DNA from: Xanthomonas sp. SI
Lineage (GTDB): Bacteria > Pseudomonadota > Gammaproteobacteria > Xanthomonadales > Xanthomonadaceae
Length of the DNA: 64,000 nt
Assembly (NCBI RefSeq): GCF_014236855.1
Contig: NZ_CP051261.1
Coordinates: 5,146,001 to 5,210,000, forward strand
Direction of reading: 5' to 3'
The notes under the pieces are model-generated. The model did no database searches. It had not been told where the DNA came from and worked only from the letters and a program-made list of their open reading frames with translations. Position numbers and translations under genes: made by a program. Positions 24,256 through 26,780 of the stretch are shown here, piece by piece. Numbering within the stretch: position 1 is the stretch's first letter; each line of letters starts with the position of its first letter.

Positions 24256-24540
24256 ATGGCAAGCGATCAATTATTTGAAATTCTTGAGGCGGTTGCGGAC
24301 GAGTCCTCGTTCGTTCGTTTTGTGGAGCTTCTCGTCGCGGACCGGCAGTCCGCGGACTTGCTCATGCTGACAGTCGATGGGTTTCAGGGAGAGTGGGCCA
24401 ATCAAACCATCGCAGACTTCTTGGGGGCCGCCTCGGCATGGGCCAGAGACTCTGCTTTCGGTGAGCGGCCAGGCCAAAAGCCCGGCAATGCCTGGAAGTT
24501 GTTCGCGACCTTTCTATGGGCTGGGCGTGGCTACGAGTAG
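24256..24540 (+). CDS. Cassette 1: DUF7660 family protein
   Basis: 94 aa. SSFVRFVELLVADRQS at the N-terminus, WANQTIADFLGAASAWARDS in the middle and NAWKLFATFLWAGRGYE at the end follow the pattern of DUF7660, a small family common in mobile and toxin-neighbour contexts; function unknown. ATG starts 5 bases after the core site with no Shine-Dalgarno, as often in cassettes. The stop is 3 bases before attC1. Base composition is lower in GC than the flanking chromosome. Confidence 0.7.
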   Translation: MASDQLFEILEAVADESSFVRFVELLVADRQSADLLMLTVDGFQGEWANQTIADFLGAASAWARDSAFGERPGQKPGNAWKLFATFLWAGRGYE

Positions 24541-24606: not shown

Positions 24607-25305
24607 ATGCACAGCATCAGGCAACGTGTAGCAAATTGGACAGCGTCTCTCCCCGCAGAAGTTGACGCTGGATCGCTATATGCGCGTTGCCCTATCGCTC
24701 ACAAATGGAAAGCGACATTTCGGATCCTTCTTGTCCGAGAGGCATCACTGTGGCGCATGGCTGATCTCGGGGCAGCGTTTGTAGATTTAGTTGACTCAAG
24801 CAAGTACTTGTCCGCCCGCATCATCTTACGCAGTGCTTGCGAGACTTCTGCACTGCTCGCATATCTGAACAAAAAGCTGCACGATGTAGTGTCTGGCCAA
24901 GTCGACTTTGAGGCGTTCAACGAGCTTACGAAGCAATTGCTACTCGGCGGAAAGAATGAGGACTATTTCCCGCCAGTGAATGTTCTAACAGCTCTGACGC
25001 ACTTCGCCAAAGACCATCCGACGATCCTCGAGATCTACAACAGACTGAGCGAGGATGCCCATCCAAATGCTGCCGGCATGATCTACGGATTTAGCACCAG
25101 CCAACCCGATATATTTTTGACCAGCTTCTCAAACAGATTCTCTGCAACGGATCCGCTCAAAAACCACACAGTTTCATCTGCAGATTTGCTGTTCCTATGC
25201 TACGAGCAACAGTACAACGAGATTTGGCCTCAGAGATTTGAGGCACTCGAGCAATGGCTGCGTGACAATGATCAGAGACTTGAGGCGCTACGAGATGGCG
25301 CCTAA
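24607..25305 (+). CDS. Cassette 2: hypothetical protein, DUF5677-like helical protein
   Basis: 232 aa, predicted all-helical and soluble. RILLVREASLWRMADLGAAF, SARIILRSACETSALLAYL and LSEDAHPNAAGM recall the DUF5677/HEPN-related group, in which a helical bundle carries a polar His motif; the resemblance is by eye only. ATG at 24607 lies 3 bases after attC1, without a visible ribosome site. The stop TAA (25303-25305) is formed inside attC2, which is common in cassettes. Function unknown; similar helical proteins occur in defence-related cassettes. Confidence 0.6.
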   Translation: MHSIRQRVANWTASLPAEVDAGSLYARCPIAHKWKATFRILLVREASLWRMADLGAAFVDLVDSSKYLSARIILRSACETSALLAYLNKKLHDVVSGQVDFEAFNELTKQLLLGGKNEDYFPPVNVLTALTHFAKDHPTILEIYNRLSEDAHPNAAGMIYGFSTSQPDIFLTSFSNRFSATDPLKNHTVSSADLLFLCYEQQYNEIWPQRFEALEQWLRDNDQRLEALRDGA

Positions 25306-25359
25306 CAAATCATTCAAGCCTAACCCGCTTCGCGGGTCGGCTTAATTCAGACGTTAGCC
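25300..25359 (+). other. attC: attC site 2 of integron cassette array
   Basis: R'' GCCTAAC (25300-25306) to R' GTTAGCC (25353-25359), with the same central hairpin ACCCGC-TTCG-CGGGT as attC1. It overlaps the end of the cassette 2 gene. Confidence 0.9.
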
Positions 25360-25375
25360 CTTCTAGGAGATATCT

Positions 25376-25879
25376 ATGTCGTTTGCAGACATGACCAAGG
25401 ACAAAGTGTTTATCGTCAAACCTAGCGGAGAGCGGCTGGGCCCTTACAACTCGGCACTTTCTCCCAGCAGCTGCACCATCTTCGACAAGACGCTGGATGT
25501 GGATCATGGCGACACCATCGCGAGACCCCTGCCAAACGGAAAGGAAGAGCACTACACCGTGCTTCGAGCCGACTTTCGCGAGGACTTTCATGGCATCCCT
25601 GGCGGCTACGACCTAAAGCTTCAGAAAGAGCAACAGATACACAAAGCGCCGTCTAGCGTTGTCAATAACGTCAGCATCACTCACTCAACAGGCGTGCAGG
25701 TTGGGGACCACAATATCCAGAACATGCAGACTGCGTTTAAGACACTAGAGAGAGCAATTGACGCTCAGACCGCCCCTCCTGAGTCCAAGGCTGATGCCAA
25801 AACCAAACTGCAAGCGCTCTTGCAACATCCGTTGGTCGTTGCGGTACTTGGCGGCGCTGCTAGCGGCGTCGCTGGCTAG
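25376..25879 (+). CDS. Cassette 3: protein with RHIM-like amyloid motif
   Basis: 167 aa. Three parts are visible. Residues about 10-85 look beta-rich (FIVKPSGERLGPYN, then GDTIARPLPNGKEEHY and FHGIPGGYDL). Residues 96-117 hold VNNVSITHSTGVQVGDHN, which carries the core V-Q-V-G and a following Asn, as in the RHIM of RIPK1/RIPK3 that forms hetero-amyloids. Residues 118-167 are a charged helix ending in a small Gly/Ala-rich hydrophobic stretch (HPLVVAVLGGAASGVAG). ATG 25376 has TAGGAG 6 bases upstream. Bacterial RHIM-like motifs are known from amyloid signalling in immune systems; the function here is inferred. It ends at attC3. Confidence 0.7.
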   Translation: MSFADMTKDKVFIVKPSGERLGPYNSALSPSSCTIFDKTLDVDHGDTIARPLPNGKEEHYTVLRADFREDFHGIPGGYDLKLQKEQQIHKAPSSVVNNVSITHSTGVQVGDHNIQNMQTAFKTLERAIDAQTAPPESKADAKTKLQALLQHPLVVAVLGGAASGVAG

Positions 25880-25939
25880 GGCTAACAATTCATTCACGCC
25901 GACTCCGCTTGGCGGCGCGGCTTAACTCAGGCGTTAGCC
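25880..25939 (+). other. attC: attC site 3 of integron cassette array
   Basis: R'' GGCTAAC (25880-25886) to R' GTTAGCC (25933-25939). The central hairpin is CACGCCGACTCCGC-TTGG-CGGCGCGGCTT, more diverged than in attC1 and attC2 but of identical length. Confidence 0.88.
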
Positions 25940-25952
25940 AAGGAGAAGGGCA

Positions 25953-26780
25953 GTGGCGTCCACTTCGATTTGCGTATGTCAGCTTGATCACATCGACCAG
26001 ATCATTCACAGGGAAGTTGCGCAGTGCCACCCTAGATATTGGAATGAAGACCATATCACTTACAGCTGGTTGAAGAAGCTCATTTCCGAGTGGCCGTCTA
26101 TTAATCTGGCCCCGCATCCGACCACCAGCGTCCACTGGGATGCATACAAGATGGATGGCAACCTCGAACAAGATAATGGTGATATTGCCTTCTTGATCGA
26201 TATCAATTTTGACAATGGCAACAGACTGAAGGGCGTCGGATTCTTAGAAGCAAAGAGAATCTACCCCACTGACAGGTTTGAAGCACTAAAGTGGGCCCAA
26301 CTCCGTTTGCTGAGCTCTAACTCGTCGAACCACCAACTATTGCTGTATGACCACAATCCGATCTCCACGCAGTACTCACTTGGAGCTTGCCTCCCTTGTG
26401 ATTACTGCCACTACTGCGAAGATCACCGCCCATATTGCTGCGAACCGTCTGAGCTTAGTTCCGCCATCGTAATGCCTACACTTCACGCGATTGCATATGA
26501 AGAGAAGGGGAGAAAATTAGAGAGTATCGGCCACCGCCTGTCGGAACAGATTGTGCTCCGGTACTTCAGAGGCTTGGATCTTGACTTCGACACTGACCTT
26601 GTGAAGCGTGTTCTCGCAGGGGCACCTGGCGGCGCCAAATTCCTAGCAGTTGCGACGATCCATATAGGAGACGAAGCAAAACCTTCAGACACAGGTGGCA
26701 CTCAGGAAAGAAAGCCGACCAAGCCAGATGAAGCTAGCGGCTACAGATCTCTTGATAGAGATATTCGCAGAGATGGCTAA
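25953..26780 (+). CDS. Cassette 4: putative PD-(D/E)xK-fold nuclease-like protein
   Basis: 275 aa, soluble. EDHITYSWLKKLISEW near residue 32 resembles the N-terminal helix of restriction-type enzymes; GDIAFLIDINFDNGNRLKGV with GFLEAKR supplies Asp77 and Glu99-x-Lys101, the spacing of a PD-(D/E)xK active site. A Cys-rich segment CLPCDYCHYCEDHRPYCC at about residues 146-163 could bind zinc. GTG start at 25953 is supported by AAGGAGAAGG upstream; TAA lies within attC4. I do not recognise a named family. A nuclease in a cassette would fit a defence role, but this is inference from a motif. Confidence 0.55.
   Translation: MASTSICVCQLDHIDQIIHREVAQCHPRYWNEDHITYSWLKKLISEWPSINLAPHPTTSVHWDAYKMDGNLEQDNGDIAFLIDINFDNGNRLKGVGFLEAKRIYPTDRFEALKWAQLRLLSSNSSNHQLLLYDHNPISTQYSLGACLPCDYCHYCEDHRPYCCEPSELSSAIVMPTLHAIAYEEKGRKLESIGHRLSEQIVLRYFRGLDLDFDTDLVKRVLAGAPGGAKFLAVATIHIGDEAKPSDTGGTQERKPTKPDEASGYRSLDRDIRRDG

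Follow-up and report, generated by a model that had tools for sequence, protein, structure and literature searches.

A cassette-borne Xanthomonas protein with a RHIM/BASS3-like core is a candidate NLR-independent assembly switch

A protein of 167 amino acids, encoded by an integron gene cassette of Xanthomonas sp. SI, carries at its centre a motif close to the one through which human cell-death kinases self-assemble, and this likeness recommends it as a candidate for a bacterial defence switch encoded by a single gene. The protein is modular, with a predicted beta-barrel N-domain, a RHIM/BASS3-like core and a helical, Gly-rich tail. We tentatively read it as an NLR-independent, single-gene assembly switch of the RHIM/BASS3 type, probably directed against phage, and regard this as quite possible yet somewhat short of probable. 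The motif class is already known and NCBI labels some members of the family accordingly; an NLR-free family borne on cassettes and prophages, its domain dissection and its module swaps appear to be new. No paper on the family was found within the open-licence literature, among the matches listed.

Results

Organization of the protein and its cassette

The window, the whole stretch of 64,000 nucleotides that was analysed, contains the following features, all on the forward strand.

25300..25357, forward: attC of the preceding cassette, forming the upstream boundary (direct-repeat family D1, half-site scan)
25354..25933, forward: RHIM-like integron gene cassette of 580 bp with a single ORF (GTTAGCC core sites and attC-like repeats)
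25365..25369, forward: AGGAG, ribosome-binding-like, 6 nt 5' of the ATG (sequence)
25376..25879, forward: 167-aa protein matching phrog_16834, a family of no assigned function (ORF, profile match)
25400..25645, forward: predicted N-terminal beta-barrel domain, approximately residues 9-90, common to a plasmid TIR effector (AlphaFold2, region shared with P0129)
25670..25726, forward: RHIM/BASS3-like motif, residues 99-117, VSITHSTGVQVGDHNIQNM (conservation, Pfam RHIM, PDB profile search, pLDDT)
25694..25705, forward: VQVG core, residues 107-110 (Q108 and G110 invariant in 58/58 rows of alignment A2)
25706..25828, forward: predicted post-motif helices, residues 111-130 and 135-149 (AlphaFold2)
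25829..25876, forward: hydrophobic, Gly/Ala-rich C-terminal tail, residues 152-167 (hydropathy, G159 invariant in A2, low-confidence short helices)
25880..25937, forward: attC closing the RHIM-like cassette on its downstream side (repeat family, half-site scan)

The ORF lies alone between GTTAGCC core sites at 25353 and 25933, flanked by attC-like repeats, and the mobile integron cassette proposed in the first-pass annotation was thus recovered. The cassette array contains four attC sites, with the RHIM-like ORF between two of them in head-to-tail arrangement, and the attC half-site pattern gave eight matches (four sites, both strands) where 0.15 were expected. The GC content of the four cassette ORFs was 50-58%, compared with 68% for the window. 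As the intI profile had no match in the window, the array was classed as a CALIN; the best intI matches fell elsewhere on this chromosome, at 448.7-449.7 kb, as three pieces below the cut-off, and the integrase there may be broken or divergent. Of the other cassette ORFs, that at 25953-26780 (275 aa) had no Pfam match at E 1 and no PADLOC match at E 0.01. The 232-aa product of the adjoining cassette at 24607-25305 matches DUF5677 weakly, scoring 20 bits where the cut-off is 27.1, and the ORF at 24256-24540 encodes a DUF7660 protein. According to an excerpt of a survey of Xanthomonas integrons, few cassette genes there were classed as defence; the same source cites work in which anti-phage systems are encoded by 20% of the Vibrio cholerae cassettes that lack a predicted function (PMC12444791).

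The beta-rich N-terminal domain that had been claimed was borne out by the AlphaFold2 models, in which the mean pLDDT of ten-residue blocks across residues 11-80 was 81-88 in one model and 87-95 in another. The domain may resemble phage neck barrels, and the head-closure or stopper barrels of phages (e.g. the SPP1 connector and the phage Chi neck) are among the known systems that come closest. Foldseek produced no match at E <=0.001 against PDB and viral models, and a profile of the N-domain found four matches among PDB sequences, with no neck protein among them.

The confidence of the AlphaFold2 model fell below 50 at residues 87-109, and the motif lies within a linker between the folded barrel and the helices. 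Placement of the motif in an ordinary buried strand of a globular domain, which had been named beforehand as evidence against a RHIM assignment, was accordingly rejected, as the model leaves the core unfolded. The C-terminal, Gly/Ala-rich hydrophobic helix of the first-pass annotation was upheld in part: the tail is present, but its hydropathy was modest (best 19-residue mean 1.52, borderline as a membrane segment) and model confidence was low, with a mean pLDDT of 68 at residues 151-160 and 48 at 161-167.

Conservation of the core across the family

A single-sequence search identified 55 homologues at E <=0.01 among 163 candidates, and a profile search identified 218 among 5515 candidates. 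The best 120 of the 218 homologues were listed, and the listed matches correspond to 128 proteins (P0001-P0128). From these, 58 were picked for diversity to give alignment A2, with truncated, fused and near-identical proteins excluded; a further alignment, A4, was reduced from the 58 motif rows to 35 by exclusion of near-duplicates and of P0055. A homologue from Xanthomonas arboricola had 75% identity, and the named homologues among the matches listed include Xanthomonas, Shewanella and Vibrio.

Residues I101, Q108, G110, N113, L124 and G159 were invariant in all 58 rows of A2, and the relative entropy at residues 104-113 was 3.39 bits, compared with a protein mean of 2.58 bits. The core [VIFL]Q[VIL]G was present in 125 of the 128 listed proteins and the strict pattern [ST]xG[VIFLM]Q[VIL]GxxN in 120; only P0039, P0040 and P0041 (112-122 aa) lacked the core. 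Loss of V-Q-V-G among homologues, which was to have counted against the motif, was therefore not the pattern found, Q108 and G110 being fixed throughout A2.

The phrog_16834 profile matched the protein over residues 2-162 (E 1.2e-30) and matched every row of A2. The name 'RIP homotypic interaction motif-containing protein' is given by NCBI to 3 of the 120 listed homologues, and a precomputed PF12721 assignment was present on 12 of the 120; phrog_16834 and the NCBI name denote the same family, in both cases without an attached function, dissection or mechanism. A second family with no assigned function, phrog_5789, was matched by 56 of the 58 rows and by the window protein at residues 87-166 (E 0.096). 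It has the core-plus-tail module in common, and its member P0135 differs in the N-terminal part. A search of 274 genomes with phrog_5789 gave no match anywhere and its controls were likewise blank, making that search uninformative. The NCBIfam FTL_1293 family (NF049902) was matched by 11 of the 58 rows (best E 4.8e-6) and not by the window protein at E 0.1.

The gene is sparse, occurring in 3 of 297 genomes of the taxonomic family of the host. Of 369 genomes of the class, two gave a match to a profile of the motif at E 0.01, and in each case the match was a family member. Additional weak matches were noted: phrog_21028 in 22 of the 58 rows of A2 (best E 0.0012) and Pesticin in 14 of the 47 rows of alignment A1 (best E 0.025). 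P0052, a shortened member of 103 aa, is labelled pantothenate kinase by one source, which is probably a mislabel.

Resemblance to RHIM

Residues 103-113 read HSTGVQVGDHN. The RHIM (PF12721) has an (I/V)-Q-(I/V/L)-G core with a flanking S/T-G and an Asn, all of which are present here, and the assertion that the match extends beyond the tetrapeptide held, the extended motif being near-invariant in the family. The bare tetrapeptide core occurred in 3.3% of composition-preserving shuffles of the protein and is therefore weak on its own; the weight is carried by the extended motif and its conservation, the strict pattern occurring in a fraction of 3.5e-5 of the shuffles. A chance tetrapeptide as sole evidence was discarded for the same reason.

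Pfam RHIM was the top family for the protein, scoring 15.2 bits in a protein scan, under the curated 20, and 20.4 bits in a genome search in which in-frame neighbours contributed. Of the close relatives, 35/47 matched at E 1, and among the diverse relatives 37/58 matched at E <=5.7e-4, which by conversion is the approximately 20-bit cut-off. Sub-cut-off RHIM matches were also found in 7 of 14 control genomes, none above the cut-off.

A 32-residue query gave four matches in PDB sequences, all to RIPK1 or RIPK3 (E 0.33-1.6). The family profile gave 14 matches, eight of which were RIPK1 or RIPK3 (E 0.021-0.17), including the first seven (E 0.021-0.11). The remainder were five unrelated chains and the last match (E 2.2), a ribonucleotide-reductase-like chain whose entry contains RIPK3 as well and which we take to be the cytomegalovirus RHIM protein. 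The full-length query gave five matches, to PufX and bromodomain chains (best E 0.013), with no RIPK among them. The likeness to RIPK1 and RIPK3 runs gap-free through a longer core, I-x-x-(S/C)-x-G-(I/V)-Q-(I/V)-G-x-x-N. Unlike these kinases, the window protein is bacterial, is 167 aa long and has a predicted barrel and helical tail, with neither a kinase nor a death domain.

A second RHIM-like protein was sought in the genome and none was found at a meaningful score, the other two matches to the core having E-values of 1.28 and 1.48. A weak second match to Pfam RHIM at genome position 5,014,974 (E 0.7) falls in a 139-aa open frame, and the ORFs there gave no link. Across the loci scanned, the loose core pattern was found outside the family in three ORFs only, and no kin were seen by eye. 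A two-protein RHIM system was considered and rejected on the absence of a meaningful second core in the genome and of kin in the loci scanned. Since the genome gave no second RHIM-like protein, any signalling would be purely homotypic, and the simplest interpretation is a device of one gene that acts homotypically.

Resemblance to BASS3

The BASS3 bacterial amyloid signalling motif was reportedly described by Dyrka et al. 2020. It has a GVQVGDxNxQ core and two Gln residues spaced by seven, as in the window motif. Alignment of the motif with the Frankia BASS3 peptide gave 9 identities in 21 positions and a score of 41, which was reached by none of 20,000 shuffles (best shuffle 40). The Frankia peptide is described as forming amyloid-like aggregates, with infrared spectra of the aggregate type and Congo Red binding (PMC8086366). 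In one BASS3 motif from Streptomyces, Pro at either of two Gln residues seven apart is stated to have abolished foci (PMC9815663). In the family studied here Q108 (invariant) and Q115 (83%, weighted) are likewise seven residues apart and may correspond to the two BASS3 Gln residues.

The surroundings of the motif differ from those of BASS systems. BASS motifs, as outlined in a 2021 review, have been defined for the most part in multicellular bacteria, where they lie at the C-terminal end of Bell effectors and the N-terminal end of the NLRs next to them (PMC7889193), whereas the window motif is central, a second copy was not found in the genome, and the hosts include Xanthomonas, Shewanella and Vibrio. 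The BASS signalosome, in which an adjacent NLR and an effector share the motif, has no counterpart here in that the genome itself yielded no second RHIM-like protein at a meaningful score, and a Pfam scan of the four neighbouring window ORFs identified no NLR domain. A modelled beta barrel occupies the position before the motif where a Bell helical domain would stand.

Exchange of modules with other proteins

The N-domain and the core-plus-tail module were each found in other combinations, represented by the following loci.

L025:6001-7101, plasmid pE5_001: N-domain-TIR fusion
L026:6001-6600, L031:1162-1755, L032:2244-2831, L033:3989-4567: relatives with an Asn/Ser-rich motif (ARVN or ARIN, then S-x-DNS)

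In the 366-aa plasmid protein P0129 the N-domain is fused to a CAP12/Pycsar TIR (PF10137, E 1.3e-35); the TIR part also matched the PADLOC candidate PDC-S35. Compared with CAP12/Pycsar TIR effectors, the window protein is without a TIR and has the RHIM-like core and tail in its place. The N-domain of the fusion matched 220 plasmid records, 206 of them conjugative, and 42 of the 60 listed rows were annotated as nucleotide-binding protein; the fusion was translated and read in one record and three further rows were fetched. A DUF4238 gene (by Pfam match) adjoins both the Shewanella relative (L002:6609-7610) and the plasmid TIR fusion (L025:7134-8255). Repeats were seen near the Shewanella relative, and no attC was resolved among them.

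In four proteins that were read, the N-domain is followed by a different, Asn/Ser-rich motif, helices and a hydrophobic tail. As these relatives carry the Asn/Ser-rich motif in place of the RHIM core, the RHIM core is not obligatory for the architecture, and the replacement is possibly a second assembly motif.

Conversely, the core-plus-tail module lies behind other N-domains, in the phrog_5789 protein P0135 (z 7.2 against shuffles), in P0136 and P0155 (z 20 and 27), which are wHTH-like, and in P0165 (z 22). The wHTH label for the N-domain is drawn from weak, sub-threshold Pfam matches of P0136 and from sequence appearance. Proteins with a wHTH-like N-domain and the core-plus-tail module (L036:3647-4189; P0137-P0165) came from one plasmid and three viral contigs. 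Nine of 29 such other-N-domain proteins were read; in eight the residue preceding the Gln is Ala, Gly or Ser, and one reads VVVG and lacks the Gln.

Two-way swapping is typical of sensor and effector modules in bacterial conflict systems. Because the N-domain and the core-plus-tail module swap in both directions, the core plus tail appears to be a unit comparable to the TIR, and the suggestion of an effector or adaptor was strengthened by this exchange, which involves both a TIR effector and N-domains of other kinds.

Viral and defence surroundings

Twelve viral contigs were found, and 11 contain full-length relatives, those of L017 and L023 being an identical protein. In the twelfth, L024, the match was confined to residues 120-165 and no fitting ORF was found. 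The Cronobacter phage ENT39118 also carries the full gene, which had no DNA match in E. coli genomes. Each of these 11 contigs and the Cronobacter phage has one gene copy per record. In contig L015 the gene lies two ORFs from a phage integrase, and in L018 after a phage tail hub gene.

Defence genes adjoin the family gene in two of the loci examined. In genome G071 it begins 37 bp downstream of a short Argonaute gene, which itself overlaps a SIR2 gene; PADLOC identified the pair (pAgo_I 1.7e-205, Aga_SIR2 6.8e-214). The SIR2, short Argonaute and family genes run in one direction (L043:4253-8089) and are possibly a three-gene short-Argonaute operon. In viral contig L014 (L014:5989-7121) the family gene is succeeded, after 26 bp, by a gene that matches the candidate defence family PDC-S67 (E 1.1e-18). 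These two neighbourhoods, one each, are not a statistical association. The family members that were tested had no match among the PADLOC models.

Discussion

The reading that we tentatively favour, an assembly switch encoded by one gene, would work as follows. The N-terminal beta barrel would act as a sensor or a lock, and the RHIM-like core would be unstructured in the monomer. Release of the lock would permit homotypic stacking of the core into a cross-beta assembly, after which the stacked C-terminal helices and the Gly-rich hydrophobic tail would serve as effector, with the membrane as the likeliest target, and growth of the infected cell would be stopped. The analysis establishes the motif, its conservation, its likeness to RHIM and BASS3, the domain architecture with its exchanges and the mobile setting; amyloid assembly, trigger, membrane action and anti-phage function are inferred.

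The likeness to RHIM could itself be fortuitous, the motif being a conserved loop in an uncharacterized family with an unrelated function. The motif is short, the Pfam RHIM score of the query is sub-threshold, individual PDB E-values exceed 0.001 and the 2021 review, in the part concerned, cautions that bacterial RHIM annotations could be false positives (PMC7889193). These points are opposed by an extended motif that is invariant or near-invariant across the family, by the rarity of the strict pattern in shuffled sequences, by RIPK1 and RIPK3 heading the ranking of the PDB profile search, by a BASS3 score that no shuffle reached, and by a motif profile confined, within the class, to genomes with family members. 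A coincidence of this kind seems to us improbable. A genuine motif could still be an ordinary oligomerization element, a short beta-arch or beta-prism that links a few subunits (for example as a trimer) by backbone and Gln/Asn contacts and never forms open amyloid; the protein would then be a stable multimer of few subunits bearing a helical tail. Its position in a linker between the folded barrel and helices suits this arrangement, as does the retention of the architecture by relatives with the Asn/Ser-rich motif, and conserved Gly, Asn and Gln residues also suit closed beta-arch oligomers. However, the PDB sequence searches returned RIPK1 and RIPK3 rather than trimeric beta-folds, the BASS3 match points the same way, and the two Gln residues that BASS3 foci need are kept at their spacing of seven. 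We consider a closed oligomer to be on the unlikely side, while giving it some weight.

The direction of action was also considered. The protein could be a lysogenic-conversion or counter-defence factor of phages, captured later by a cassette, whose target would be phage assembly or a defence complex of the host and which would not act by killing the cell. The full gene in 11 viral contigs (two with an identical protein) and in phage ENT39118, together with an N-domain resembling phage neck barrels, is consistent with this origin; the N-domain-TIR fusion and the pAgo/SIR2 neighbourhood fit defence better. Prophages also carry defence genes against competitors, and phage context is therefore not decisive between the two. 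On balance a phage factor appears unlikely. A more elaborate version of the defence reading is that the N-domain is a captured phage stopper barrel serving as bait: the neck of an assembling phage would draw it in or destabilize it and so release a killing amyloid of the RHIM type, with the same bait driving the plasmid TIR. This is highly speculative and we doubt that it is correct; if true, virion assembly would be sensed by an amyloid immune switch that needs no NLR and is traded as cassettes and as prophage and plasmid genes.

Under the assembly-switch reading, the family bears on a question raised by the same review, as far as the excerpt used here extends, namely whether bacteria have signalling amyloids that are independent of NLRs, earlier searches having been biased towards NLR/effector pairs (PMC7889193). 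It is a concrete candidate for such an amyloid, comprising one gene with a central RHIM/BASS3-like core. It occurs in Proteobacteria, where it was found as an integron cassette and in viral contigs, and its modules also occur on plasmids. If the protein assembles, a motif of animal necroptosis would be tied to a portable, one-gene bacterial device, and the family would offer a minimal laboratory model of RHIM signalling.
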